Shown: positions 395 to 25,808 of the stretch, in pieces
Numbering within the stretch: the first letter of the stretch is position 1
How the letters are laid out: each line of letters opens with the position of its first letter
DNA from: a virus
IMG/VR virus record: IMGVR_UViG_3300005664_000067
Location: 1-26,372 of that record
Strand: one strand, 5' to 3'
Length of the DNA stretch: 26,372 nucleotides
The notes under the pieces: generated by a model
What the model was told of the DNA's origin: nothing
The model's input: only the letters and a program-made list of their open reading frames with translations
Database searches by the model: none
Program-made: the position numbers and the translations under genes

Positions 395-3340
395 ATGTCA
401 GAAAAACAATATAAAGCAGTTAGCCCGGGAGTAGAGATTAGAGAAATTGATCAGTCTCAACTTCCTGCCGTTTTTGATGAGCAAGGTCCAGTTGTAATTG
501 GACGTGCGGAACGTGGACCGGCAATGGTTCCCGTTAAAGTCAATTCTTATTCAGAATTTGTTGAATTTTTCGGCAATCCTAATGGAAATCTTGCTCTAAC
601 GGACGTATGGAGAGAGAAAGTAACTATTGGTCCTTCTTATGGAGCTTTAGCTGCGCAAGCATCTTTAGCAAATAAAAGCGCTTTAACTTTCGTTCGTTTG
701 TTAGGAACACAAAATGATGAAGCAACTTCTGCGGGTAGAGCAGGATGGGGAGTTGGTGGAGATGGAGATGCAGAAAACCTTTCTTATAACGTAAGAGAAG
801 GTGGAGCATATGGTCTATATCTGATTCCTTCTGTTACATTGCCTGCAACAGTTGCAACAGGGACACTTGCAGCAGTATTTTACCTAAATACTGGTTCTAT
901 AATGCTTAAAGGACAATTATATGGAGCATCTGGCGCATATAGTTCAATTTCTGGGTCTGCTGTATTAATTGAATCCGATACCAATAAACAATTCAGAGCC
1001 TTGATAAAGAATGCTTCTGGTGTAACCGTTGAAGACGTTACATTTGGTATGGATAAATCTGGCGATAAATTCATCCGTAAAGTATTCAATACGAATCCTA
1101 CAAAAATTAACTCTGCTTTGTATACTTCCCCTAAGACATACTTTTTAGGAGAAACCTTCGAAGACTTTATTTATAATGCTGATGAAATGTCAGGTATGCG
1201 TGATTCTACAAGATGGGTAGGTGTTATCTTAGGATTGAAGAACAATTCTACAGGAGATACTCTGTCTAGCAGAAGAATTCCTTCTCAACACGGTAGAACA
1301 GGATGGTTCTTCTCTCAACACTTAGGAAATAACGCAAACTTTGAAATCGATAACGTTCAAAAATTATTCAAAATACACTCTCGTGATTCTGGAGAATGGA
1401 ATCAAGCTCATATCAAAATTTCTATAAGAAATGTAGAAGCAAGTACAAATGTCTACAATCCTTACGGAACCTTTGACGTTGTTATAAGAAAAATTGACGA
1501 CTCTGATCAAAACATTGTAATCATTGAACAATTCAATGGATGCGATTTGAATCCTCAATCTGAAAATTATCTAGCAAAGAAAATTGGTGACAAATATATT
1601 GTATACAGCACTTCTGATCGTAGAAATATAGAATATGGAGATTATGATAATCAATCAAGATATATCAGAGTTGAAATAAATGAAGATGTAGCAGTTGGAG
1701 CAACTGTTCCTGAATTGCTTCCATTCGGTGTATATGGACCTGTGAAATTTAGAGATTTCTCTTTCTCATCGGGATCTATTGGAAACGATTTGGGTATGTC
1801 TGGTTCTATGTTTGGAGAATATGAAAGAGCTGCAACTGGTGCAACTTATCCGAACTATGCTGCGGCATTCGTTATAGGTGGAACTTCTATTGCAGATTCT
1901 GCTGTAAATGCATTATCTGGAACTGGTCCTGTAGTATTCGGTGCTGGACCATCTGGTGCTGTTTCAACAACAATCAAGACTGCTGCTATTCTAATGCCTT
2001 TCCCAAGACTTAGAGTTTCAACACTTACAGGTGCATTAGGTAATCCTAAGAATGCATACTTCGGAGTATTCACAGATAATACATCTGATACTTTCCAAAA
2101 ATCTGTAAGAGATTTAACAAATGTTATGCCAAGAGGTGTAGATTCTTTTGCACCTGATTCTGCGGAAGGAACAGCTTATTCATGGAAGTTCACTTTAGAT
2201 GATTTGAAGTATGTATCTGGTGGAGAAACTGATGTTCAATGGTCATCTGGTTCTAGATTAGCTGGAACATCAATAACATCTATCGGTTCAAATGGATGGA
2301 ACTCTGTACTGACAGGTGGTTGGGATTCTTTCACAACATTATTAGCAGGTGGATTTGACGGATGGGATATTACTGAAATCGAACCATTGAGAAATGATGC
2401 GATGGCAGGAGCAACCGAAAAGACAAATTATGCATATAATACAATAAACAGAGCTATAGAGCTTCTACAATATCCTGAGTTAGTAGAATTCAACGTTGCT
2501 GCAATCCCTGGTGTAAATAAAGCAGGGTTGACAAGAAGACTGATTGAAGTCTGCTCACAAAGAGGAGACGCCTTAGCGGTTATAGATTTGGAAAATGATT
2601 ATAAGCCACGTTCAGAAAATTCTCTTCCAGAATCGTCTAGAAGACCTATTGTGTCAACTGCAATTAGTGCATTGAAAGATAGAGCATTCAATACGAACTA
2701 TGGTTGTGCATATTTCCCATGGGTACAAGGTATTGATCCAAACTCTAACATTCTTACATATCTTCCTCCTTCGGTTATTGCATTAGGAGCATTTGCTTAT
2801 ACAGATAGAGTAGCTGGTTCACACCATGCTCCTGCTGGATTTAGTAGAGGTTCGTTGTCCCAAGGACACGGTGGAATACCTGTAAAAGATGTAACATTGA
2901 AATTATTGCAAAAAGATCGTGATGATCTATATAAAGCAAATATCAATCCCATCTCTTTCCTTGAAAGAGAAGTGGTTATCATGGGACAAAAAACTCTACA
3001 AGTTATTCCATCTGCATTGGATCGTATAAGTGTAAGAAGAGGTCTATTAGATCTTAGAAAGAAATTCTCTAAGATTGCGTCTAGACTTATCTTTGAACCT
3101 AACGTCCAAGATACTTGGAACAGATTCAAAAATCAAGCAGAACCTGTATTGAGAGATATGGTTACTAAATTAGGATTAGATGACTGGAGACTTATATTGG
3201 ATAGTAGAACAACTACTCCTGATTTGATAGATAGAAATATCATCTATGCAAAAGTTTACTTAAAACCAACTCGCGCAGCAGAATTCTTCTATCTTGACTT
3301 TAATATAAGTAATTCAGGTGCCGCTTTTGCGGAAGTGTAA
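395..3340 (+). CDS. Tail sheath protein (gp18-like), unusually large
   Basis: Contractile tail sheath subunit that polymerises around the tail tube and contracts on infection. The N-terminus contains SPGVEIREID followed by GPVVIGRAERGP, the usual opening of phage sheath proteins. The C-terminal part (about residues 690-981) carries the conserved core, ending in a beta strand region near YLDFNISNSG. The start is set by GGAG about 9 bases upstream of ATG 395. The protein is 981 residues; T4 gp18 is 659. The extra length lies in the middle (roughly residues 115-640), which is rich in Gly, Ser and Thr and probably forms surface-exposed insertion domains. The tail tube gene follows after 26 bases, the normal sheath-tube order. 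Confidence 0.93.
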   Translation: MSEKQYKAVSPGVEIREIDQSQLPAVFDEQGPVVIGRAERGPAMVPVKVNSYSEFVEFFGNPNGNLALTDVWREKVTIGPSYGALAAQASLANKSALTFVRLLGTQNDEATSAGRAGWGVGGDGDAENLSYNVREGGAYGLYLIPSVTLPATVATGTLAAVFYLNTGSIMLKGQLYGASGAYSSISGSAVLIESDTNKQFRALIKNASGVTVEDVTFGMDKSGDKFIRKVFNTNPTKINSALYTSPKTYFLGETFEDFIYNADEMSGMRDSTRWVGVILGLKNNSTGDTLSSRRIPSQHGRTGWFFSQHLGNNANFEIDNVQKLFKIHSRDSGEWNQAHIKISIRNVEASTNVYNPYGTFDVVIRKIDDSDQNIVIIEQFNGCDLNPQSENYLAKKIGDKYIVYSTSDRRNIEYGDYDNQSRYIRVEINEDVAVGATVPELLPFGVYGPVKFRDFSFSSGSIGNDLGMSGSMFGEYERAATGATYPNYAAAFVIGGTSIADSAVNALSGTGPVVFGAGPSGAVSTTIKTAAILMPFPRLRVSTLTGALGNPKNAYFGVFTDNTSDTFQKSVRDLTNVMPRGVDSFAPDSAEGTAYSWKFTLDDLKYVSGGETDVQWSSGSRLAGTSITSIGSNGWNSVLTGGWDSFTTLLAGGFDGWDITEIEPLRNDAMAGATEKTNYAYNTINRAIELLQYPELVEFNVAAIPGVNKAGLTRRLIEVCSQRGDALAVIDLENDYKPRSENSLPESSRRPIVSTAISALKDRAFNTNYGCAYFPWVQGIDPNSNILTYLPPSVIALGAFAYTDRVAGSHHAPAGFSRGSLSQGHGGIPVKDVTLKLLQKDRDDLYKANINPISFLEREVVIMGQKTLQVIPSALDRISVRRGLLDLRKKFSKIASRLIFEPNVQDTWNRFKNQAEPVLRDMVTKLGLDDWRLILDSRTTTPDLIDRNIIYAKVYLKPTRAAEFFYLDFNISNSGAAFAEV

Positions 3341-3366: not shown

Positions 3367-3954
3367 ATGGCAGCACCTAATGTATTCTGGGCAAGTCCAG
3401 TAAATGAACCAAAAAGATCGTACAAATATCTTGTACAATGGGGTAACGGAGATATTCCTTGGTATCTCGTATCGTCTATTGATCTTCCAAAATTAGAAGT
3501 TGGGGAAGCGCAAACTCATGCTCTTAATCATACCTTCAAATGGACCGGAAGACCTACTTGGCAAGATGTTACCATGGAAGTAACAGATTCTGAGTCTCTA
3601 AATGCTATGAAAGTTGTTATGAATAAGTTCAAACAAGCTGGGTATGTTTATCCTGATAGACCTACTCAATATAGAACTATCTCTAAACAAGGATTTATAA
3701 ATGCATTTGGACAATTGGTTATTCAAGAAATAAGTTGGGATGAAAAGATCATAGGAGAATGGAAATTTCTCAATGCTTGGATTAAGAGTATTGATCCAGG
3801 TAAGAAAGCTTATGAATCTGATGATCCTCAAAAAATATCAATTGGTGTTACGTTCGATTGGGCGGAATACGATACAGAAAATGCAGGAACCTTTATAGGG
3901 GAAAATCCATTGCAAGGAGATGTTCCTGGTGGCGGAAATCCTAACGCAGCTTAA
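3367..3954 (+). CDS. Tail tube protein (gp19-like)
   Basis: Major tail tube subunit, 195 residues, stacking as hexameric rings inside the sheath. The protein begins MAAPNVFWASPVNEPKRSY and contains the typical order of gp19-family proteins: a Trp-rich N-terminal strand, a central ITF-like stretch (residues about 55-75, with TWQDVTMEVTDSE) and a C-terminal strand region near ISIGVTFDWAEYD. Its length is close to T4 gp19 (163) with a short Gly/Asn-rich tail. The start follows AGGAGAAA. Immediate downstream position to the sheath gene and upstream position to the chaperone and tape measure genes fits tail-gene order. The name is strong from context, while the sequence match is by pattern only. 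Confidence 0.88.
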   Translation: MAAPNVFWASPVNEPKRSYKYLVQWGNGDIPWYLVSSIDLPKLEVGEAQTHALNHTFKWTGRPTWQDVTMEVTDSESLNAMKVVMNKFKQAGYVYPDRPTQYRTISKQGFINAFGQLVIQEISWDEKIIGEWKFLNAWIKSIDPGKKAYESDDPQKISIGVTFDWAEYDTENAGTFIGENPLQGDVPGGGNPNAA

Positions 3955-3968
3955 TAATTGAGGTATAA

Positions 3969-4793
3969 ATGAGTTCAAATAATAAATTTCCAGAATTGGT
4001 ATTTCCATCATATACAGATATGGTGGATTTACCCTCTGGAGGAAAATTTTATCCTAAAGATCATCCTCTTTACGGTCAAACTTGTGTTGAAATAAAACAA
4101 ATTAGAGGGCCAGAAGAAGATATTTTAACAAATAAGGATTATCTTAGACGAGATATAGCAGTTGATAAACTACTATTATCTCTTATTAAAAATGATAATC
4201 TTAAACAAGATTATGCATATAATAATTTGCTTATTGCGGACCAACTAATGTTGGTCAATCAAGCAAGAATGACAGCATATACATATGATTATTCATGTTC
4301 TATTCGTTGTCCAGCATGCAAAGTGGTATCTAATTTCAAATTTGATCTTAGAAAGCATAAGATTATTTTACCAGATTTATCAAATGATAAAGATGTAAAG
4401 TATGACGAAGACACTAACCAATTTGTGGTTACTATTCCTGATACTAAAATTGTGTTACGATTATTGCCATATACTGTGGGTACACAACGAAAGATAAAGA
4501 ATAAGCTCTTAGCGAAAAAAGATAAAAGTCTTTCCAAAAAAGAGCGCTATGAAGATGTCATATATTCTATAAACGATGAAACGGATAGAAAATACATTTC
4601 AGAATTTTTCAACGTGGTGCCTGCTTTCTATCTAAAGTGGTTAGAAGCTGTAATAGAGGATATCAATATTACTGTTTCTTTTGAACAACAATTCGTATGT
4701 AGTTCTTGTCAATATGATGAAGATCTGGAGCCGCCGTTTACAGTTGATTTTTTATATACACCGAAGATCCAAAGGAAGAAGCTACAAGAGTAA
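3969..4793 (+). CDS. Tail assembly / baseplate hub protein (T4 gp26 family), short form
   Basis: Protein of 274 residues read in the zero frame. The N-terminus has VDLPSGGKFYPKDHPLY, the LPS-x-G-x-x-Y opening I associate with the T4 gp26 baseplate-hub family. Two CxxC pairs (C114/C117 and C244/C247) could bind one zinc ion. It sits between the tail tube and tape measure genes, the place where lambda G-like tail assembly chaperones lie, so it probably handles the tape measure protein during tail assembly. The frame ends at TAA 4791-4793, but a U UUU UUA heptamer at 4748-4754 would move some ribosomes into the -1 frame to make a longer product. The hub-family name and the chaperone role are compatible but not proven. 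Confidence 0.7.
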   Translation: MSSNNKFPELVFPSYTDMVDLPSGGKFYPKDHPLYGQTCVEIKQIRGPEEDILTNKDYLRRDIAVDKLLLSLIKNDNLKQDYAYNNLLIADQLMLVNQARMTAYTYDYSCSIRCPACKVVSNFKFDLRKHKIILPDLSNDKDVKYDEDTNQFVVTIPDTKIVLRLLPYTVGTQRKIKNKLLAKKDKSLSKKERYEDVIYSINDETDRKYISEFFNVVPAFYLKWLEAVIEDINITVSFEQQFVCSSCQYDEDLEPPFTVDFLYTPKIQRKKLQE

Positions 4794-5029
4794 ATAATAA
4801 TGTCTATTTAGGTGTTAATAATTTATTCTTTTCTTTACATGATGCTGATGAGAAAAAGTTGGCATTACATACAGAAATAGCAAATATGCAAGCGCATAAT
4901 TGGGATATAATGTATGCGTATTCTCTCCCTGTTGGTCTTAGAATATTCTATATAAAACAAATAGTAGAGCGATTAAATGCGGAACATGAAGCAAGAAATC
5001 AATCTGCAAGAGAAAGTGCTAAAGTCTAA
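3969..5029 (+). CDS. Tail assembly chaperone, long form by predicted -1 frameshift
   Basis: Predicted fusion made when ribosomes slip one base back at 4748-4754. The first 262 residues (to Leu262, codon 4752-4754) match the short form; reading then resumes at ATA 4754 and runs to TAA 5027-5029, adding 91 residues for a total of 353. The extension begins IYTEDPKEEATRVNNNVYLG and ends in a charged helix (VERLNAEHEARNQSARESA). It has no plausible own start: the first in-frame ATG is at 4886, well inside the open stretch, while the -1 frame is open from 4748. The same arrangement (short G protein, -1 fused GT protein, then tape measure) is known in many tailed phages. Seen: the frames and heptamer. 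Inferred: that slippage occurs. Confidence 0.7.
4748..4754 (+). promoter_or_regulatory. Slippery heptamer T TTT TTA for -1 ribosomal frameshifting
   Basis: In the zero frame the codons are GAT TTT TTA, so the last T of GAT with the next two codons forms X XXY YYZ with X=T, Y=T, Z=A. This is a classical -1 slippery sequence. It lies 39 bases before the zero-frame stop and within six bases of the start of the open stretch in the -1 frame (which opens after TGA 4745-4747). A GGAG at 4727-4730 lies 17 bases upstream; it is somewhat far to act as the stimulatory Shine-Dalgarno element known in dnaX. No obvious strong hairpin follows. Confidence 0.75.
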
Positions 5030-5057
5030 ACTGTGATATAAACTATCACAGTTTTTT
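5028..5057 (+). terminator. Intrinsic terminator after the chaperone gene
   Basis: A perfect stem, ACTGTGATA at 5030-5038 with TATCACAGT at 5044-5052 around a five-base loop, is followed by a run of T (5052-5057). It begins right at the TAA that ends the frameshift extension and precedes the tape measure gene by about 35 bases. This supports 5029 as a true gene end and suggests that chaperone and tape measure genes are in separate or attenuated transcripts. Confidence 0.85.
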
Positions 5058-5092: not shown

Positions 5093-7681
5093 ATGGCAGA
5101 TAATATATCAGTAGATATTGATCGTTTAGTTGATGAGCTTACTAAAAGAAGTTCTCTATCGCGTGTGCTTAATGAAGAACAAGCAGACGTCAGCAAGTAT
5201 TTAACTGAATTTATTGAGGCTATAAAAGCTGCGAGCAAAGAACTAAAGACAGCTTCTGATAAATTTGATTCTGCGGGTAAAGCAGTTTCTGATCGTCAAA
5301 AAGAAGACGAAAAGATTTATGCTGAATTCAAAGAGAAATTTGAAGAGGCAATGAAGCTTGATAAAGTAGAAGAAGTTCAATCTGCTTTTGATAAATTAGT
5401 TGAATCTATTGAAGAAGCTGTTAAAGCAAAACGTTTAGAAGCAGATAATGGTGAGCTATTAAAAAATGCATTAAATGCAAAAAAAGAATTTATAGAAGCT
5501 GCGTCTAATCTACAAAAAGCTAAAATAGAAGAAGAAAAGCATAAAAATATGCTTGAACGTATAAAATCTTCTAGTCAATCAAATGTGAGTTCTTTATTCG
5601 GAGCATTAGGCTTATCTTATGAGGGTGATCCTAAAAATGCTAACGCTTTGTTTATGGGTCTATCTCTTATAAGAGATGGTAAAACTCAACAAGGTATGTC
5701 ATTATTAGCTGCATACGCAGATATGGCACAAAAAGCATATTCTAATATGATCGATCCGTTAAACGTATTTGTCAATATTCTTGGTCTGTTGAAATCTAAA
5801 ACTATAGAAGTCTTCACCATGGCGGATCAAGTAACAGCTAATTTTCTACGAGCAACAGGTGCTACAACTGCGTATAGAGATGTTGTAATGGAAGCATGGG
5901 ATGGAACTAGAGGAGTAGGTGTTTCTTTAGAAGAAATGTCTGATATAGTTCAAGGGTTGATTAATGATTTTAGAGGTTTCTCTAGAGAAACCGAAGATTC
6001 TAAAATTCAAACTGCTGAATATGTTTCACTTGTATCTAGATTAGGAGTTGGATCGTCTAGCGCAATCAAATTACTCACTTATTTTACAGATTCTTTAAAA
6101 CAAAGTGTTACACAAGCAAAAGGGAATTATTCCCAATTATTAGGATTAGTGAAAACAACTGGTGAAACTCTTAAGAAAGTAACAGATGATTTTATTCAAT
6201 CTATTCCAGTTGTATCTAGATATGGTTCACAAGCATCGTCTGTGTTTAGACAGATGTTTGCAACAGCAAAAGCATTGCGCATTGAAACTTCTCAGCTATT
6301 AGAAGTTTCAAGTCATTTTGATACTTTTGAAGATGCTGCAACTTCTGTTGGTAAATTAAATGCAATTATGGGAGGACCTTATCTAAATGCCATTCAGCTA
6401 ATGAATCAAAACGAAGCAGAACGTATTACAACTCTTAACAGAGCATTTAAAGCAACTGGAAAAACATGGGAATCTCTAAGCAAATATAGCAGACTTGCTT
6501 TCGCCGCTGCTGCGAATATTACAGATATGGATGTGGCTCAAAAAGTATTTAATGGATCTACACAAGATGCTGCGCGTTATATGCGTCAAGCATCTTTGGA
6601 ACAAGAAGAATTAGCGGAAAAGAATCAACGTGCAACTAGTATTGCAGATAAATGGAAAAATGTTCTTATGCAAATTGGAGCTGTTTTAACTCCTATTATT
6701 GATCTTGTACATGGTGTTGTTGATGTATTTTTAGATTTCTCAGATACATTAGGTAAAATTTGGGGACCATTGCGTGTATTGGCTGTTCCTTTATTGTTCA
6801 TGATGATATCTGGTTTTAAAGGTCTATTTTCTATGATGTTAAGTTTTGGACCAAAAGCCATAACAAAGATAAGTTCTCTATTATCTAAATTTAGTGGAAT
6901 AGCTTCTACTGTAGCGCCTGCTACAGAAGCTGCTGCTGCTGGAATAGGTGCAGCGGGAAGTGCATCGGCTGCTGCTGCTCCTTCTGTTGGAGGATTAGGA
7001 AAAGTATTGTCAGGAATTGCACAAGAAGCGCCTGCTATAGCAAAAGCTATATTATATATAGGTGGAGCAATTGCAATTGTTGTTGCGTCATTCATGGCTT
7101 TAAAACAAATAGCTTCTGGTATTGGTTCTTTGTTTGAAGGAGTTGGTAAAGGAGTTGGAAAATTTGTTGAAGGAATAGGTCAAGGATTTTACGATTGGGT
7201 AACAGAATCTCCTCTTGAAGAGTTAGAGGATTTGATCGATACATTAGCAGATGCTGGTCCAGATATTGGAACTAAAATGATGGGAATTGGTAATGGATTG
7301 AAACAAATGGTCGAAAGTTTTAATTCAAGTATATCACAATCTACGCTAGAAAGTTTTACAGATTTAATAGAAATTTTAGCAGATAACTCAAGTAAATTCT
7401 CTAATACAGTTGGTTTAGGAATTTTAGATTCCTATGCTAGATTAATGGAAGCATCTAGTGATTTAGCAATTACTCCTACAAAAATACAAGATATGAAACA
7501 GTTTACAGAAAACCTAGTTACCATAAGTAAAACTAATGGAGATGGTGGATTGTCTAAAATTGCATCTTCTAATCAAAATGTGGAAGTTAAAGTATATATT
7601 GACGGAACAGAGCTAACCTCCAAAATTGTAAAAGTTGTAAAAAGTGATTTAAATAATTCATTACAACCAAGAACAGGATAA
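5093..7681 (+). CDS. Tail tape measure protein
   Basis: Protein of 862 residues that probably sets tail length and occupies the tail lumen. The first 165 residues are highly charged and helical, with long Lys/Glu/Ala coiled-coil stretches. The central part is helical and Ala/Gln-rich. Hydrophobic segments follow at about residues 560-590 (VLAVPLLFMMISGFKG) and 650-675 (ILYIGGAIAIVVASFMA), separated by an Ala/Gly-rich stretch; such membrane-active helices are common in tape measure proteins. A Gly-rich segment leads to a short beta-type C-terminus. AGGA lies 10 bases before ATG 5093. The position directly after the chaperone pair and before baseplate genes supports the role. No lytic (peptidoglycan-cutting) domain is evident. 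Confidence 0.85.
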   Translation: MADNISVDIDRLVDELTKRSSLSRVLNEEQADVSKYLTEFIEAIKAASKELKTASDKFDSAGKAVSDRQKEDEKIYAEFKEKFEEAMKLDKVEEVQSAFDKLVESIEEAVKAKRLEADNGELLKNALNAKKEFIEAASNLQKAKIEEEKHKNMLERIKSSSQSNVSSLFGALGLSYEGDPKNANALFMGLSLIRDGKTQQGMSLLAAYADMAQKAYSNMIDPLNVFVNILGLLKSKTIEVFTMADQVTANFLRATGATTAYRDVVMEAWDGTRGVGVSLEEMSDIVQGLINDFRGFSRETEDSKIQTAEYVSLVSRLGVGSSSAIKLLTYFTDSLKQSVTQAKGNYSQLLGLVKTTGETLKKVTDDFIQSIPVVSRYGSQASSVFRQMFATAKALRIETSQLLEVSSHFDTFEDAATSVGKLNAIMGGPYLNAIQLMNQNEAERITTLNRAFKATGKTWESLSKYSRLAFAAAANITDMDVAQKVFNGSTQDAARYMRQASLEQEELAEKNQRATSIADKWKNVLMQIGAVLTPIIDLVHGVVDVFLDFSDTLGKIWGPLRVLAVPLLFMMISGFKGLFSMMLSFGPKAITKISSLLSKFSGIASTVAPATEAAAAGIGAAGSASAAAAPSVGGLGKVLSGIAQEAPAIAKAILYIGGAIAIVVASFMALKQIASGIGSLFEGVGKGVGKFVEGIGQGFYDWVTESPLEELEDLIDTLADAGPDIGTKMMGIGNGLKQMVESFNSSISQSTLESFTDLIEILADNSSKFSNTVGLGILDSYARLMEASSDLAITPTKIQDMKQFTENLVTISKTNGDGGLSKIASSNQNVEVKVYIDGTELTSKIVKVVKSDLNNSLQPRTG

Positions 7682-11339: not shown

Positions 11340-12352
11340 TAAGAGAATTATTTGAAAATAATGATACATATGAATCTGCGGTAGTGAATGCTAATTTATT
11401 AGATTTTTCGCAAGTCAGAGAATATGGATTTATTTGTAAAGACAGATTGTATATTCCAAATAATTTATTCATTAAGCCAAGTATAAAACAGCCTGTGATC
11501 AATTTTGTAGATTCAAATGAGGCATTAGACAAGTTGTTGAGTCACATCCGTAACCACTGCACATTTGGTAGAATACCTACAACTTCTAAATTTCACATAA
11601 ACAATATTAAATTGACCAAATCGTACATAAATTCCGAAGATTTATACAAATCGTATATGTTTATATTATTATCCAATTTTTTGGATAAAATGCCGCAAAC
11701 AGACTTCACAACCTTTTCAGAATTTTTTAATAAATTTGTGTATGAAATGTACACAGATATAAAATTTATGAGTGATTTTATGAAGTCAGAAATAGTATCT
11801 ATATTTTCAACAGGATTAGCTTATCAAATATTTGATGAAAAAAAACCTGATATGGAAATTGCAAAATCTTATATACAAGATGATTTCTTCTATATATTCA
11901 AAAACATATGTTTACAATATAATTTCATAATTGACAAACATATGCCCTGGATTATAGTCTACCGTGTGTCGGAAGAATATTTGACCGACAATATCAATAG
12001 ATATAAGAGCGTATATGCATCAGATATGAGCATATTTTTCTCGGTAATGAAGATATTATATACGTATTATGTGCGTAATATTTTGAATCAAGATTTATAT
12101 AATAACGTAGATATAGACAACTTTTCATTGTCTAAAGATGCGATATTGAACTTATACATCGAAAAAAAATTAGAAATCCAGTATATTAAATATACAAAAG
12201 ATGATTTCCTTTCATTAAAGAATTTCTTTAAAACGAATACTCTGTATAACGGACTTGAAAGCAGTGCTCATAAACTCAACAATATTAAACAAGTCAGTGA
12301 TGCCGTTTATGATGATTGGCAACAAATATATCTCGGATTGGGGAATAACTGA
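11336..12352 (+). CDS. Protein of unknown function, likely virion-associated
   Basis: Protein of 338 residues, rich in Phe, Tyr, Ile, Asn and Lys and predicted mostly helical. The part around residues 190-215 (FKNICLQYNFIIDKHMPWIIVYRVS) looks like a stretch I have seen in uncharacterised structural proteins of T4-like phages. I cannot name the family. Its ATG lies in the stop of the baseplate gene (ATGA overlap), so it is co-translated with it. Its 3' end overlaps the next gene in a different frame. It carries none of the polymerase or 3'-5' exonuclease motifs I looked for, so it does not appear to be the missing half of the downstream polymerase. Confidence 0.5.
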   Translation: MIRELFENNDTYESAVVNANLLDFSQVREYGFICKDRLYIPNNLFIKPSIKQPVINFVDSNEALDKLLSHIRNHCTFGRIPTTSKFHINNIKLTKSYINSEDLYKSYMFILLSNFLDKMPQTDFTTFSEFFNKFVYEMYTDIKFMSDFMKSEIVSIFSTGLAYQIFDEKKPDMEIAKSYIQDDFFYIFKNICLQYNFIIDKHMPWIIVYRVSEEYLTDNINRYKSVYASDMSIFFSVMKILYTYYVRNILNQDLYNNVDIDNFSLSKDAILNLYIEKKLEIQYIKYTKDDFLSLKNFFKTNTLYNGLESSAHKLNNIKQVSDAVYDDWQQIYLGLGNN

Positions 12353-13439
12353 TACACTACCTGTAATAGATAATAATATTTACATTTCTGTTTATTTCGA
12401 AAAATCATTTTTATTTAGAGAAGATATTTTATATCTTCCGTGTTTGATTAATTCTTACAATTATCACATCTATTTAACCGGCTATTATAACTTTAACTCA
12501 TTCAAATCCTGTTATGAGAAGTTCAAAGCTGAACTTCGTTCACTATACGTTTGTCGTTTTAATATTTCTGACTTTACTAATTTTTTGAATGAGAAAGTTA
12601 TTCTATCCTTTTACAAAGAGTATAAAGAGGCAATTCTATTCTTATACGAAAAATTCAACTTTGTAGAAGATTATGAGCATAAAGCAAAAGCATTTATAAT
12701 TTCTGAGTATATCAGTTTTGGTAAACTATTATATGATGACAAATATGTGAAAATATCTTTCAATCCTTTTACAGATTATGGAAGATTTGGTTTAAATGCG
12801 AACTCTTTTAATATATTATCTTTAGCCAAAGATAAACGTTATAAATTGGATGCGGATAAAGACTTCGAATTTTTCGAATATGATTACAATGCATTTGAGA
12901 TAAGAGTATTGTTAGCTTTACTGAAAATCAATCAACCTAAAGGAGATTTATACGAAGTATTGCATAATATGTCAAACGATTATAGACAACGTTCTCAGTT
13001 TAAACAATTTCTAATATCTTCAATATATTCGAAAAACGAAGATAAAACAGTTCTCTATAATTTTATGAAAAATAGAGAGTTTTATAAACAATATCAAATT
13101 GTAGAAGGGCATGTAACAAATATCTTTGGAAAGAAGATGGAGTCTGATGAGTATCATATTTTGTCTAGAGTGCTGCAATCTTCGGCAGCGTATATATTAT
13201 ACCAACAAATGTACGAACTAGCTTTCTTTATAGAAACGAATAAATTGAAAACAAGGATAGCATTTTGTATACATGATTCAGTATGTTTGATGATTCATAA
13301 AGATGAACATCAATATATTGATCAATTTAAACAGATATTAGCCACAGTTAATATAAAAAAGTTAAATTATGAATCATTTTTTGAATTGAAAATAAAACGT
13401 GGAAAAAATTACGGAGAAATGAAAGCATATGAAACTTAA
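12300..13439 (+). CDS. Short family A DNA polymerase (polymerase domain only)
   Basis: Template-directed DNA synthesis. From ATG 12300 the protein is 379 residues. The conserved family A order is present: TDYGRFGLNANSFNILSL (about 158-175) matching the T-x-x-GR-L-S...NLQNIP region; motif A DYNAFEIRVL with D195 and E200; motif B with R231, K235 and Y243 (R-x3-K-x7-Y), where the residue matching Phe762 of E. coli Pol I is Ile; QSSAAYILYQQM matching QGTAAD; and motif C IHDS with D326, where Ser replaces the usual Glu. There is no room for a 3'-5' or 5'-3' exonuclease. The start is unsure: 12300, 12309 and 12312 are ATG without a clear ribosome binding site, and TTG 12255 is less likely. Confidence 0.8.
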   Translation: MPFMMIGNKYISDWGITDTLPVIDNNIYISVYFEKSFLFREDILYLPCLINSYNYHIYLTGYYNFNSFKSCYEKFKAELRSLYVCRFNISDFTNFLNEKVILSFYKEYKEAILFLYEKFNFVEDYEHKAKAFIISEYISFGKLLYDDKYVKISFNPFTDYGRFGLNANSFNILSLAKDKRYKLDADKDFEFFEYDYNAFEIRVLLALLKINQPKGDLYEVLHNMSNDYRQRSQFKQFLISSIYSKNEDKTVLYNFMKNREFYKQYQIVEGHVTNIFGKKMESDEYHILSRVLQSSAAYILYQQMYELAFFIETNKLKTRIAFCIHDSVCLMIHKDEHQYIDQFKQILATVNIKKLNYESFFELKIKRGKNYGEMKAYET

Positions 13440-20103: not shown

Positions 20104-20109
20104 ACTTTG
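20091..20109 (+). promoter_or_regulatory. Ribosome binding site fixing a TTG start for the reductase
   Basis: AAAGGAG at 20091-20097 lies nine bases before TTG 20107. No ATG occurs near it in the reductase frame, and the residues read from this TTG (NTYTQELSDFIF) match the normal N-terminal length of monomeric class II reductases. A TTG start is therefore the best choice. Confidence 0.75.
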
Positions 20110-22233
20110 AATACATATACACAAGAACTTTCGGATTTTATATTTACAAGTAAATATGCCAGATATGACGATTCCAAAAAACGTAGAGAGACATGGGAAG
20201 AATCTGTTGATAGACTCTTAAACATGCATTTAGATAGATTTACATGGTTAGATCCTGTAGATACAAATGAAATTATAGAAGCATTTGACGCTGTTAAGCG
20301 CAAAGAAAATGTTCCATCTATGCGCAGTTTACAATTTGGAGGAAAAGCCGTTGAAGCTCATAACTCTAGATTGTTCAATTGCGCCGTCAGACACGTTGAT
20401 TCAATTCGATCATTTTCAGAAATATTTTATTTATTGCTTTGTGGGTGTGGAGTGGGAATTGGCTTACAGAAGAAGTTTTTAAAGAGATTGCCCAATTTAG
20501 TTACAGCAGAAGATAAGACAGGTACTGTTTTAACATATGTTGTAGAAGATACAATAGAAGGATGGTCAGATTCCATCGAAGCTCTATTATCCTGTTATTT
20601 CAAAAATACTGCATGGACTGGACGAAAGATTGTCTTCGATTATTCTAGAATTAGAAAAAAAGGCGCTATATTGAAAACAGGTGGGGGCAAAGCTCCTGGG
20701 TATAGAGGATTAAAAAAAGCTCATATAAAAATCAAGAATATTCTTGATTTCATTATTGAAGAAATGGGACAGTTATCATTAGGATCTATAAATGCATATG
20801 ATATACTAATGCATTTAGCAGATGCTGTATTGTCTGGCGGAATTAGAAGATCAGCTTGCTCTATTGTCTTCTTAGAAGATGATATAGATTTGTTAAATTC
20901 TAAAATTTACTTTAATGTCTTAAAGAAAGGTAAATTTGAATTTAATGAAAAAACTTCTAAATATGAAGGATATGTTATTATTGATGATCCTTGTTATAAA
21001 AATTTGAAGATTGATGTAGAAATTTCTAATCAATATGGAGCTTATGATACCTTACTAAAAGATAATATCATAAGTTGGTTTGAAGTTTATCCACAAAGAG
21101 CAAGAAGTAACAACAGTGTTCTTCTTTTAAGAAATAAAATAGATTTTGAATCATTTACTAGAATATTTGATAGAACCAGACAATTCGGTGAACCAGGATT
21201 TGTGTTTGCTGATCATGAAGATACTTTATTCAATCCATGTTTTGAAATATCCTTTATACCTGTATATGAAGGAGTATGTGGTGTACAGTTTTGTAACCTT
21301 AGTAGTATAAATGGGGCTAAAATTAAAACAAGAGAAGATTTGTTAAAAGCTGCAAAGTATGCTTCTATAATAGGAACATTGCAAGCATCTTATACTGATT
21401 TTCCATATTTAAGCAAAGCAGCTAAATGGTTAACAGAAGAAGAAGCGTTATTAGGGGTATCTATTACAGGTATGATGGATAATCCTGAAATAAATCTGAA
21501 TCCTTCTATTCAAGAAGAAGCAGCTACTGTTGTAAAAGATACAAATGAAATTTGGGCTAAAAAGCTTTATATAAATCCTGCGGCAAGAACAACCTGTATA
21601 AAACCAGAAGGAACCTCTTCTCTTGTTTTGCAAAGTGCATCTGGTATACATCCTCATCATGGGCGAAGATATTTCCGAAGAGTGCAATGTAACAAAATTG
21701 ATCCAGTTTATATGCATTTCAAAAAATCCAATCCACATATGTGTGAAGAAGGTGTTTGGAGTGCAAATAAAACAGATGATGTTATTACATTTCCTGTTGA
21801 AGTATCAGATACAGCTTTAATCAAAGAAGATTTATCTGCTCTATCCCATTTGGATATCATAAAGAATACCCAACAATATTGGGTACAAACTGGTAAATCT
21901 AAATACAATAAGAAAAGTATAGACAATAATGTCTCTTGCACCGTAATTGTTGGACAAGAGGAATGGGATCAAGTTATTCAGTATCTATATGATAACAAAA
22001 ATTATTTTGCAGCAGTTTCTTTCATAGGAAAATCTGGTGATAAAGATTATGTGCAGGCTCCGTTAGAAAATATTACAACCAAAGAAGATGAAGAAAAATG
22101 GAACAATATTGTATCTAATTTTACCAAGGTAGATTATACTTTATTGAAAGAAGCAACGGATCAAACAGCTTTGCAAGCCGAATTGGTTTGCGCCGGAGCA
22201 AATGGGTGCGAATTGCCTATATTGACAAATTGA
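20107..22233 (+). CDS. Adenosylcobalamin-dependent (class II) ribonucleotide reductase
   Basis: Converts ribonucleotides to deoxyribonucleotides with a radical made from coenzyme B12, feeding phage DNA synthesis. Protein of 708 residues; the monomeric Lactobacillus enzyme is 739. The radical-site residues are present: C92 in SRLFNCAV, C378 and E380 in NPCFEIS, and C396 in QFCNLSSIN, matching C119, C408, E410 and C419 of that enzyme. CGCGVGIGLQKK and PAARTTCIKPEGTSSLVLQSASG (the phosphate loop) also fit. The C-terminal relay pair is C695 and C701 in VCAGANGCELPILTN. The enzyme needs no small subunit, and none is seen. It uses a TTG start. Confidence 0.93.
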   Translation: MNTYTQELSDFIFTSKYARYDDSKKRRETWEESVDRLLNMHLDRFTWLDPVDTNEIIEAFDAVKRKENVPSMRSLQFGGKAVEAHNSRLFNCAVRHVDSIRSFSEIFYLLLCGCGVGIGLQKKFLKRLPNLVTAEDKTGTVLTYVVEDTIEGWSDSIEALLSCYFKNTAWTGRKIVFDYSRIRKKGAILKTGGGKAPGYRGLKKAHIKIKNILDFIIEEMGQLSLGSINAYDILMHLADAVLSGGIRRSACSIVFLEDDIDLLNSKIYFNVLKKGKFEFNEKTSKYEGYVIIDDPCYKNLKIDVEISNQYGAYDTLLKDNIISWFEVYPQRARSNNSVLLLRNKIDFESFTRIFDRTRQFGEPGFVFADHEDTLFNPCFEISFIPVYEGVCGVQFCNLSSINGAKIKTREDLLKAAKYASIIGTLQASYTDFPYLSKAAKWLTEEEALLGVSITGMMDNPEINLNPSIQEEAATVVKDTNEIWAKKLYINPAARTTCIKPEGTSSLVLQSASGIHPHHGRRYFRRVQCNKIDPVYMHFKKSNPHMCEEGVWSANKTDDVITFPVEVSDTALIKEDLSALSHLDIIKNTQQYWVQTGKSKYNKKSIDNNVSCTVIVGQEEWDQVIQYLYDNKNYFAAVSFIGKSGDKDYVQAPLENITTKEDEEKWNNIVSNFTKVDYTLLKEATDQTALQAELVCAGANGCELPILTN

Positions 22234-23158: not shown

Positions 23159-23182
23159 TTTGATAGACTATTTATTGCATGA
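23108..23182 (+). pseudogene. Remnant of the 5' end of purA/purZ, cut off by the endonuclease insertion
   Basis: A 24-codon open frame starts at ATG 23108 (with ACGGAG seven or so bases upstream) and stops at TGA 23180-23182. Its first 17 residues, read MIKFIDIIQDLSYGDCG, match the start of the intact synthetase at 23929 in 14 of 17 positions. Homology ends exactly inside the active-site loop GD-x-GKG; the next residues (FDRLFIA) are unrelated. Its stop overlaps the endonuclease ATG, so ribosomes loading here may pass to the endonuclease gene. Confidence 0.8.
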
Positions 23183-23928
23183 AATGTTTAATTTGTCCAA
23201 ATGAAACTAAAACTAAGAAAGCAATAACTTGTTCTAAAAAATGTGCCTATCAATATAGAAAACTTCTTTTACAAGAAAAACATGGAGTTGAAAATCCTTT
23301 TCAACTCCAGTCAGTGAAAGATAAATCCACAAACACTATCCTTAAAAAATATGGTGTCAGTAACGTATCTAAAAGTGATGAAATTAAGAAAAAGAAGATC
23401 AACACTTGTCATAAAAATTTCGGTGTAGATCATCCAGGTCAAAGTTTAAAAGTTAAAGAAAAAATTAAAGAAATATGTTTATCTAAATATGGTGTTGAGA
23501 ATCCCATGTTTGATGAAACTATAAAAAATAGGTCCGTAACTAATGGTGGAGGTCGAGCTGTTCCTAAAAGATATATAACTAAATATGGTAATGAGATAAT
23601 TGTTCAAGGATCTTATGAATTAGATTTTGTAAAAGAATGTGAACAATTAAATATACCCATTAAAAACGGACCATGTATAAATTATGTATTCAAAGGTAAC
23701 AATAGAAAATATTTTATAGATTTCACGATAGAACATACTGGTACAACAAAAATAGTTGAAATAAAAAGCACCTATTATTTCGAAAAATATAAAGAGGAGA
23801 TATTGTGTAAAAAATTATTTGCAGAAAAATATGCGTTAGAAAACAATATGCTTTATGAACTGATAGTTTTAGATAAAACTCGAAAAGAACGAAAATATTT
23901 ACTAGACGAATTAAATAAGGAGAAATAA
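23158..23928 (+). mobile_element. Endonuclease-encoding insertion in the synthetase gene
   Basis: The left limit is where the remnant stops matching the synthetase (after 23158). The right limit is the TAA at 23926-23928, directly before the intact gene. The incoming DNA probably also carried the new, recoded synthetase 5' end, so the real recombination border may lie within or beyond 23929-23979. There is no space for a self-splicing intron, so this looks like a free-standing homing gene. Confidence 0.6.
23179..23928 (+). CDS. Homing endonuclease, PD-(D/E)XK type with DNA-binding repeats
   Basis: Probable site-specific nuclease that spreads its own gene. Protein of 249 residues. The N-terminus has a zinc-finger-like C3-x2-C6...C18-x3-C22. 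Four short repeats with the core Y/H/F-GV-x-N/H-P follow at about 35, 58, 81 and 104, spaced about 23 residues; such repeats often bind DNA in phage endonucleases. The C-terminal half has a PD-(D/E)XK layout: E147 in GSYELDF, D181 in KYFIDFTI, and E194-x-K196 in VEIKS. It begins in the stop of the synthetase remnant, and its last codons (AAT AAG GAG AAA TAA) supply the ribosome binding site of the intact synthetase gene at 23929. Confidence 0.78.
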   Translation: MKCLICPNETKTKKAITCSKKCAYQYRKLLLQEKHGVENPFQLQSVKDKSTNTILKKYGVSNVSKSDEIKKKKINTCHKNFGVDHPGQSLKVKEKIKEICLSKYGVENPMFDETIKNRSVTNGGGRAVPKRYITKYGNEIIVQGSYELDFVKECEQLNIPIKNGPCINYVFKGNNRKYFIDFTIEHTGTTKIVEIKSTYYFEKYKEEILCKKLFAEKYALENNMLYELIVLDKTRKERKYLLDELNKEK

Positions 23929-23979
23929 ATGATAAAATTTGTGGACATTATACAGGATCTCGCATATGGCGACGCGGGA
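23929..23979 (+). repeat. Diverged direct repeat, copy 2 (synthetase codons 1-17)
   Basis: This is the working N-terminus of the synthetase gene. It encodes MIKFVDIIQDLAYGDAG and is recoded relative to copy 1 at 23108, with many synonymous changes. It continues without a break into the rest of the active-site loop (KGAVAYS). Confidence 0.8.
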
Positions 23980-25044
23980 AAAGGTGCTGTGGCATATTCT
24001 CTTTCTAAAAAACCTGAGTATGATATCTGTATGAGAGTAAATGGCGGGTCTAATGCGGGACATACAATTTACCATGAAGGTAAAAAATTCGTTACTCATC
24101 AAGTTCCAACTGGTATTTTTCACGGTAAAACATGTATAATTGGTAATGGATGTGTTGTTAACGTCTCAAAACTTTTAGATGAGATCAAAGAATTAGAAGA
24201 AGCAGGCATTTCTTGCAAAGGAAGGATTTTCATAGCGCATAATGCTCATATTGTCATGGCTGATCATGTAAAAGAAGAAGAGAACGAATCTGCAATTGGA
24301 ACAACCAAACAAGGGATTGGACCTTGTTATAGAGATAAATACGCTCGCAAAGGATGCAGAGCGATTGATCTTCTGTTTGAGCATATTTTTGAAGGCAAAG
24401 AAGAAGAAGGATATTCATTGATCTATTCAGAAAAATATGGTCCGTTGAGGGATCATGTTATAGATATGATCATTGAAGTGCACCCTGTCTTGTTTGTTTC
24501 AAATAAAAACTACGGTATTCTTGTAGAAGGTGCGCAAGGCTATTATCTAGATATCGATCATGGTGATTATCCATATGTTTCTTCTTCACATGCTTCTGTT
24601 GCAGGAGCATTGCTGAATGGGCTTCCGTTTAATAAAATCAGAAAGGTATATGGAGTTATTAAGGGCTACGAAACTTATGTTGGTGCAATGAAATTCCAAC
24701 CATTAGATCCTATATTTGATAAATTAGGAGACTTGGGACAAGAATTCGGGGCAACAACTGGAAGACGTAGACAGTGCAATTGGTTAAATTTGGATAGACT
24801 TGTAAAAGCTATGCAAGTCAATTGTGTGACTCATTTGATTGTATCTAAAATGGATATTCTTAGAGAATTGAATTTTCAAGAAAATAATCAATATTGGAAA
24901 GTGATCATAGGTTCTATAGAGTTGCCTCTTGTAAATGAAGAGGATTTTTATATGGTTCTTGAAAATACCATCACAACTTATCATTCTTTTGACTTGAAGA
25001 ATCTTCAATACAAGTACGGTCCCGATCAAGAGATAACTGTATGA
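23929..25044 (+). CDS. Adenylosuccinate synthetase homologue (PurA/PurZ type)
   Basis: Joins aspartate to a purine nucleotide at the 6 position with GTP or ATP. PurA acts on IMP; phage PurZ acts on dGMP to make the 2-aminoadenine precursor. The protein is 371 residues: bacterial PurA is about 430, phage PurZ and archaeal PurA about 340-350. Key parts are present: GDAGKG with D15 and K18, NAGHT with H45, IGTTKQGIGP (123-132), ARKGCR (139-144), EGAQG (200-204), DIDHGDYPYVSSS (208-220), ATTGRRR (275-281) and SKMD (306-309). D15 corresponds to the catalytic Asp of PurA; known PurZ has Ser there, favouring PurA chemistry. However, DLAYG resembles the PurZ DLQFG opening, and the PurA loop GPFPTE is replaced by a MKFQPLD stretch. 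AAGGAG precedes the start. Confidence 0.88.
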   Translation: MIKFVDIIQDLAYGDAGKGAVAYSLSKKPEYDICMRVNGGSNAGHTIYHEGKKFVTHQVPTGIFHGKTCIIGNGCVVNVSKLLDEIKELEEAGISCKGRIFIAHNAHIVMADHVKEEENESAIGTTKQGIGPCYRDKYARKGCRAIDLLFEHIFEGKEEEGYSLIYSEKYGPLRDHVIDMIIEVHPVLFVSNKNYGILVEGAQGYYLDIDHGDYPYVSSSHASVAGALLNGLPFNKIRKVYGVIKGYETYVGAMKFQPLDPIFDKLGDLGQEFGATTGRRRQCNWLNLDRLVKAMQVNCVTHLIVSKMDILRELNFQENNQYWKVIIGSIELPLVNEEDFYMVLENTITTYHSFDLKNLQYKYGPDQEITV

Positions 25045-25265: not shown

Positions 25266-25504
25266 GTGACTTACGTAAAGTTGAAAAATTAGACCCAGAA
25301 GATCTTACATGGGCTACATTAAGAATGGCAGATTTACAAATTGGAGATATTTTTAGATTAAGTGAATCCGATACGAAATGTTTCGGAGAATTTAGAGCAG
25401 ATGGTGAACCTTATAAAAATGAAGAAGGTGTTTATACTATTGTAGCCATGCCATTTGATATAGAAACTTGGACAGAAATTCCAATGAAGAAAATAAATGA
25501 ATAA
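25262..25504 (+). CDS. Small acidic protein of unknown function
   Basis: Protein of 80 residues with DLQIGDIFRLSES in the middle and YTIVAMPFDIETWTEIP near the end, suggesting a small beta barrel. It is acidic overall. It overlaps its neighbours on both sides by a few bases (ATGA at the start, eight bases at the end), placing it in the synthetase-MazG operon. No family recognised. Confidence 0.6.
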   Translation: MSDLRKVEKLDPEDLTWATLRMADLQIGDIFRLSESDTKCFGEFRADGEPYKNEEGVYTIVAMPFDIETWTEIPMKKINE

Positions 25505-25808
25505 AATATATCCATACGAAATAATAGCCATATCAAAAGCTTATGATAAGAAAACTTCTATACAAAAAGTTTTAAAACTAGTAGAAGAAGTCGGTGAACT
25601 AGCTCAAGCAATTCTTATAAATGAAGAAGCTCATGGCACTCAGTATAGAGATAAATCACAATTTTCAATCGTAGAAGAACTTGCTGATGTTTATCTTTGT
25701 TTGTTCGCTATTTTTCCAGGATATGATATATCCGAAGAAGCTTTTAATGAAGAAGTTGGTAAAAAATTAAATAAATGGACAAACAAAATAGGATTAACAA
25801 ATGAGTAG
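25497..25808 (+). CDS. MazG-like nucleotide pyrophosphohydrolase
   Basis: Probably hydrolyses a nucleoside triphosphate to the monophosphate and pyrophosphate. Protein of 103 residues, all helical. The MazG metal site is visible: KLVEEVGELAQAI with E31 and E34, and VEELADVYLCLFAI with E61 and D64, matching the E-x2-E ... E-x2-D pattern. In known 2-aminoadenine phages a MazG-like enzyme turns dGTP into dGMP for PurZ, so its place three genes after the synthetase is suggestive. General house-cleaning of nucleotides is the simpler reading. The start at 25497 overlaps the preceding stop. Confidence 0.82.
   Translation: MNKIYPYEIIAISKAYDKKTSIQKVLKLVEEVGELAQAILINEEAHGTQYRDKSQFSIVEELADVYLCLFAIFPGYDISEEAFNEEVGKKLNKWTNKIGLTNE

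Follow-up and report, generated by a model that had tools for sequence, protein, structure and literature searches.

The tail gene locus

The window, i.e. the whole stretch of DNA that was analysed, is a virus record of 26,372 bases (IMGVR_UViG_3300005664_000067), a fragment known from one contig. The gene order in the part of interest is sheath, tube, gp26-like gene, extension and a long open reading frame (ORF), with the following features:

395-3340, + strand: tail sheath protein (phrog_23, E 2.1e-54)
3367-3954, + strand: tail tube protein (phrog_4542, E 1.3e-18)
3969-4793, + strand: gp26-like short tail assembly chaperone (TAC), the zero-frame product of 274 aa, with a predicted frameshift exit after residue 262
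4727-4730, + strand: GGAG, Shine-Dalgarno (SD)-like, a putative stimulator in the same place as the GGAGGT of relatives
4748-4754, + strand: T TTT TTA, a canonical -1 slippery heptamer by its sequence; an in-frame heptamer is also present in the -1 relatives
4748-5029, + strand: -1 frame extension, the predicted C-terminal domain of a long form (91 residues, 4754 to 5026 post-slip; stop codon at 5027-5029)
5028-5054, + strand: terminator-like intrinsic hairpin at the boundary between the chaperone and the next gene (-11.9 kcal/mol, z -4.83)
5093-7681, + strand: probable tape measure protein of 862 aa, assigned by position only

The ORF at 5093-7681 gave no significant match in phrog or Pfam-type profile searches; in immuto, LIS04 and SP-15 a tape measure gene is annotated right after the homologous pair. 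The hairpin lies between the chaperone and the probable tape measure gene and could set their ratio.

Near its 3' end the gp26-like ORF reads ...GTT GAT TTT TTA TAT ACA CCG..., so that T TTT TTA stands in the zero frame in the X XXY YYZ register of a canonical bacterial -1 site. From 4748 on, the -1 frame runs without a stop for 93 codons, or 91 after a canonical tandem slip, as far as the TAA at 5027-5029, and the predicted fusion, with the junction VDFL/IYTEDPK, would comprise 262 + 91 = 353 aa. In these points the sequence agrees with a first-pass annotation of the same DNA, as it does in the claim of a terminator at the -1 frame stop, the stem of which overlaps the stop codon. That annotation also gave the -1 frame no proper start codon for its first 130 bases, a claim that is valid if TTG is excluded, since the first ATG lies ~138 nt in, and fails if TTG is counted, since the earliest start-like codon is a TTG ~111 nt in.

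The heptamer by itself is weak evidence, not beyond chance; there are 49 in-frame X XXY YYZ heptamers among the 8332 codons of the AT-rich window, three of which are of the T6 type. The -1 frame stays open in 3 of 20000 mononucleotide shuffles, and its codon usage scores +0.24 per codon, compared with -0.62 and -0.81 for the other forward frames. With the heptamer alone being weak, it is the homology of the extension that decides in favour of more than chance.

Family and predicted fold of the short protein

The window gp26-like protein matches PF12322 with E 9.4e-5 (22.6 bits, below the cut-off of 24.5) and phrog_150 with E 0.0058. Three relatives match phrog_150 at 4.7e-8 to 9e-12, and T4 gp26 and gp51 match it at 6.7e-71 and 2.6e-84, respectively; both T4 proteins also match PF12322 (8.8e-64 and 3.9e-52).

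A predicted structure of the short protein, made from 37 alignment rows, has pLDDT 92.6, with confidence that falls to 67 and 52 in its last two blocks, just past the slip site. Its best solved matches are the HK97, YqbN and RBSTP2171 TACs. The top Foldseek match among solved structures is the HK97 TAC 2OB9 (E 0.79, probability 0.66), and a second structural alignment gave 3FGX, 3KLU and 2OB9 at Z 6.6, 6.3 and 6.2, over 86-94 residues, with the next chain at 3.0, although fold matches at Z 6 may reflect common arrangements. All three are phage tail assembly chaperones, according to an excerpt of PMC9603447. The structural matches cover residues 3-113 only, and for this part the model suggests a TAC fold. 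A sequence search of solved structures gave no relevant match, and among predicted viral proteins there were 56 matches at E up to 0.001, many of the listed ones being named baseplate hub proteins. The extension, modelled with locus L005 as the first row, is predicted to form three helices (pLDDT 75.6); this model gave no useful structural match.

Homologous extensions in related phages

Relatives were gathered by tblastn and profile scans, one of which contributed the best 80 of 589 loci. The first set, of 91 loci, consists of these 80, the window, six loci and four further ones; L002 and L008, the contigs of which end inside gp26, were dropped. With a profile into which ten of the 91 loci had gone, all frames behind the gp26 stop were searched for the extension. 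It lies in the +1 frame in 89 and in the -1 frame in 2, i.e. the window and the huge phage LR756511 (L010); L051 was scored as +1 although just 21 bases remain at the stop. A further 12 isolate loci comprise seven of the -1 type, with T TTT TTC or T TTT TTT (XacN1, Atu_ph07, Phosso, RAS14, Vibrio 2.275, PA5oct and 121Q), four of the +1 type (Streptococcus GXN1, LIS04, SP-15 and LuckySocke) and one that was unplaced (L099, Alishewanella). For four of the seven -1 isolates (L098, L100, L102 and L104) the open -1 frame alone decided the placement, none of their extensions giving a significant match to the profile individually; taken together, the seven do match. Another 23 loci were reached via the window sheath or in bacterial genome contigs; 4 had no gp26 that was found, 2 ran off the contig, and the 17 with a complete gp26 are all +1. 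The total of +1 loci is at least 110, the first set drawing on the best 80 of 589, and homologous extensions are present in about 200 related loci.

The profile of the 87 +1-frame extensions, from which the window and LR756511 had been excluded, finds the -1 ORF of the window at E 1.6e-11, the runner-up among the 205 window ORFs being at 0.021. When compared by hhalign, the +1 clade family matches those of the jumbo phages, cyanophages and Gram-positive phages with probabilities of 91, 86 and 94, respectively, versus 0.3-0.4 for reversed controls; the cyanophage and jumbo extension families match each other with a probability of 38 only. Substitutions behind the gp26 stop are distributed over codon positions 1/2/3 as 217/111/503 of 831 in the +1 clade (19 pairs) and as 188/103/498 of 789 in the cyanophages (30 pairs). 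As judged at the sequence level, the extension is under coding constraint in the relatives. No close relatives of the window gp26 DNA, extension or tape measure gene were found in the collections searched.

In public genomes the extension is often split off or overlooked. It is annotated separately, often in truncated form, in L110 (5191-5364), L105 (3783-3992), L097 (3764-3883), L011 (4854-4964) and L012 (4737-4973), and is 'gp51' in S-PM2; in LIS04 (L096) and PA5oct (L104) it is unannotated.

Site sequence and direction of the proposed shift

The sequence of the site goes with the frame of the extension. All nine loci in which the extension was assigned to the -1 frame have T TTT TTN in frame at the gp26 3' end. 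Most of the +1 relatives have GAC-TTT-TTT-TGG-CCT as the putative slip site, and in +1 sites with TTT TTT a T precedes the run in 0 of 82 (61 have C, 13 G and 8 A). The Asp before the +1 run is encoded by GAC in 52 of 52 cases, and in the rest of these genes GAC accounts for 478 of 1446 Asp codons; the Fisher p-value for this bias (6e-25) is too small, because the rows are phylogenetically related and not independent.

A shift of -2 instead of +1 in the relatives is disfavoured by a pairing argument, since re-pairing of the Phe codon fits both in 99 of 110 sites, +1 only in 11 and -2 only in none. The run is broken in 11 of the 110 +1 sites (TTT CTT T, TTC TTT T, TTT C) with the frame retained. 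One of the +1 sites, TTC TTT CGT of L095, resembles UCC_UUU_CGU, at which an excerpt of PMC3498833 describes a +1 frameshift in a eukaryotic virus, shown by mass spectrometry; the P-site slip from UUU to UUC at that site is of the type proposed for the +1 relatives L095, L106 and L009, unlike the -1 slip of the window. No published description of the +1 clade was found in the literature searched, which excluded Vladimirov et al. 2022. Conservation of the heptamer and the -1 frame, to which the first-pass annotation had looked for support, is found in cyanophages and jumbo phages, but not in the nearest relatives, which have the extension in the +1 frame.

Trees were made from 82 of the 103 gp26 rows together with three T4-type rows, and then from 52 of the 82, leaving out L099, L106 and the T4-type rows. 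In the 52-row tree, the bootstrap of which had not settled, the window falls in a set with 35 +1 rows (100/95), itself nested in a set with 40 (99/96), and the -1/+1 label needs three changes. A tree that unites all nine -1 rows in a single clade is rejected (AU test, p 0.0014). It may be inferred that the direction probably switched from +1 to -1, because the window nests in a clade that reads the homologous extension in +1. An independent switch in the window lineage is likely on this sequence evidence, though short of proof, because a group of the window and the seven jumbo -1 phages is not rejected (AU test, p 0.109) and the window is a long branch.

In such a switch, GAC TTT TTT TGG would have become GAT TTT TTA in the window lineage, +1 being swapped for -1, and an insert of ~30 residues, which the window carries after the slip in the alignment, would have been gained. 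We consider it probable, with some reserve, that the direction of a programmed shift was flipped in this way at one orthologous codon, from an ancestral +1 TTT-TTT-TGG to the -1 T-TTT-TTA of the window, with the gp51-like long form kept. If so, the two-form chaperone of the T4 superfamily would be made in three ways, i.e. by -1 shift, by +1 shift and, in T4, from two genes.

The main rival to the direction switch is an indel error in the one contig, by which a base, e.g. a T in the run, was lost in the overlap; the true gene would then be an in-frame fusion like T4 gp51, with the short form encoded elsewhere. One added T would indeed join the gp26-like part and the extension in frame, T4 itself has separate genes, and the difference in frame from all near relatives has been seen only once, on one contig. 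However, the other main ORFs of the window are without an obvious break, and no other gp26-like gene lies in the 26 kb, a fragment. Moreover, at the aligned FF site the six-T run forms exactly a -1 heptamer of the canonical type, with a preceding T as in all the -1 sites, and this T is missing from the +1 TTT-TTT sites. We regard such an error as improbable.

Other origins of the second frame

The extension might be a small independent gene that has a start codon of its own and is translated by re-initiation after the gp26 stop. Several annotators have assumed so, including for S-PM2 (gp51), 121Q, Phosso and Vibrio 2.275, and in 72 of 103 loci an ATG, GTG or TTG occurs in the extension frame between 29 nt before and 45 nt after the gp26 stop. 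By contrast, 31 of the 103 loci have no start in that interval, the annotated starts differ, the open frame reaches upstream through the slippery site, which is conserved, and T4 gp51 carries the extension domain fused to a gp26-like part. The first-pass annotation held that relatives with the extension as an own-start gene, lacking a slippery site, would speak against a frameshift; the relatives in which it is separately annotated do have slippery sites, and their starts vary, so that this objection does not arise. A separate gene appears to be very improbable. Transcriptional slippage is the least probable origin, because, even though RNA polymerase too slips on T runs, six Ts are short for it, 11 of the 110 +1 sites break the run yet keep the frame, and the codon-phase features (-1 sites have a T ahead of the run, +1 sites do not) speak for tRNA re-pairing.

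Possible stimulators

In the programmed-frameshift reading, the GGAG of the window may act as a stimulator. It starts 22 nt 5' of the first TTT, counted from the start of the motif, with 18 bases in between. Of the 93 +1-side loci examined, 54 have an SD-like motif that starts at the same distance of 22 nt from the first TTT, and 16 lack one within the 36 nt read. The GGAGGT of the relatives L015-L094, ~22 nt 5' of their +1 slip site, is conserved with a strong codon bias and is a candidate stimulator; in a thinned set of 68 rows, the Glu of the Glu-Val-Pro site upstream of the slip is encoded by GAG in 42 of 42 sites, whereas elsewhere GAG is used for 48 of 105 Glu residues that precede a Val. 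Known stimulators are spaced 10-14 nt from -1 sites and 3 nt from the prfB +1 site, and the spacing from GGAG/GGAGGT to the slip exceeds both.

Internal initiation from the conserved GGAGGT is judged unlikely; the sites inspected by eye have no start codon at 5-10 nt downstream of the motif. There is no stable RNA structure downstream of the window slip site (folding z 0.30), so a stimulator of that kind is unsupported for the window.

Relationship to lambda, P2, T4 and cyanophage systems

Frameshifted tail assembly chaperones, lambda gpG/gpGT among them, were reportedly treated by Xu et al. 2004, a paper that PMC5009743 cites. As with lambda gpG/gpGT, the window appears to encode a short protein and a frameshift-extended long one, with the slippery site near the 3' end, before a (probable) tape measure gene, and, as for the lambda-type TACs, the model suggests a TAC-like fold. 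By contrast with the lambda-type TACs, the N-terminal part appears to belong to the T4 gp26 family and the tail is T4-like and contractile; this part is also more than twice the length of the matched HK97 chain (104 residues). Phage P2, which also has a contractile tail, reportedly (Christie 2002) makes gpE/E' by a -1 shift on T TTT TTG, likewise a T6 heptamer; its chaperone sequence is not known to be related to that of the window.

The S-PM2 gp26 gene has the 3' end TCT TTT TTC GCA TAA, and the annotated gp51 of this phage is the -1 extension. Of the best 80 of 276 S-PM2-like loci, 80 of 80 have an in-frame T6 heptamer followed by 35 or more codons of -1 extension, and the heptamer is T TTT TTC in every case. 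The cyanophage system is like that of the window in its T6 heptamer and -1 extension; unlike the window, S-PM2 gp26 stops one codon past the slip and is without the ~30-residue insert, and the sequences are distant.

A profile of the cyanophage -1 extensions matches the C terminus of RB49 gp51 at 1.5e-11 and residues 207-245 of T4 gp51 at 1.8e-8. With this profile alone, the window extension is absent among the matches listed; the link of the window extension to the gp51 type is stepwise, from the cyanophage profile to T4/RB49 gp51 and the +1-clade family, and from there to the window. T4 gene 26 (ending GAG TTC TTT GAG) has no T6 slippery heptamer and no following extension. Because the cyanophage -1 extension matches gp51, and T4 gene 26 is without heptamer or extension, T4 gp26 and gp51 look like a short/long pair carried as two genes, as far as sequence comparison goes. 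The window resembles T4 in having a gp26-like N-terminal part (PF12322/phrog_150, the former below its cut-off) and a gp51-like C-terminal extension; unlike the window, T4 encodes the short protein and the fused long one in separate genes. A second gp26-like gene was not found in the 26-kb fragment, in which there is only one gp26-like ORF, and the two-gene arrangement of T4 is accordingly not seen within it.

The locus very probably encodes the TAC of a T4-related contractile-tailed phage, with a short form of 274 aa and a -1 frameshift form of 353 aa, the shift itself being what we infer, along with its efficiency and the roles of the two forms. What the sequences show is the slip site with its open frame, homology for each part of the protein and, in relatives, coding constraint; the TAC-like fold comes from the model. 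Most ribosomes would read the gp26-like gene to its own stop, giving the short form, while some would slip back one base on T TTT TTA, with tRNA-Phe and tRNA-Leu re-pairing in the -1 frame, so producing the long form, whose helical C-terminal domain would be a homologue of the one in T4 gp51. If the division of labour is that of lambda gpG/gpGT, the short form, in many copies, would serve as a coat for the tape measure protein, and the long form, in a few, would bring in tail tube subunits. The system would thus be of a known kind, with a direction that is unusual for its clade.

The earlier proposal, in which a T4 gp26-like protein is extended by a -1 frameshift as in lambda G/GT, is supported by the ~200 homologous loci, the TAC-like fold and the link to gp51. 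The tie that it drew between the T4 hub chaperones and the lambda G/GT system is not new, T4-type TAC genes having reportedly been named already by Vladimirov et al. 2022. Poly-T slippery sites are likewise known in T4-like TAC genes, as stated in a passage of PMC12846349 that cites Vladimirov et al. 2022. Most long-tailed phages are known to have a frameshifted tail chaperone, and an excerpt of PMC5009743 describes the frameshift as widely conserved "except T4". The present comparison would place T4 gp26/gp51 at one end of a series, the relatives in which make both forms from one gene, by a -1 or a +1 shift. This suggests that selection maintains the long form, not the direction of the shift. 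The relatives also provide a large natural set of +1 sites.

Other genes in the window

A protein like PurA/PurZ adenylosuccinate synthetases is encoded at 23929-25044 (+ strand; phrog_1211, E 1.5e-69; NCBIfam PurZ, 129.7 bits, below the cut-off of 300), a MazG-like protein at 25497-25808 (+ strand) and a piece of a family A DNA polymerase at 12255-13439 (+ strand). Together they are possibly a 2-aminoadenine DNA set in a T4-related phage. A B12-dependent (class II) ribonucleotide reductase is encoded at 20107-22233 (+ strand), with a TTG start in the ORF list; its best match, RTPR at 4.1e-56, is under the cut-off. The gene at 23179-23928 (+ strand), which adjoins the PurA-like gene, encodes a DUF7487 protein (2e-24) with a weak match to TnsA-like endonucleases (5.2e-4), possibly a homing-type nuclease.
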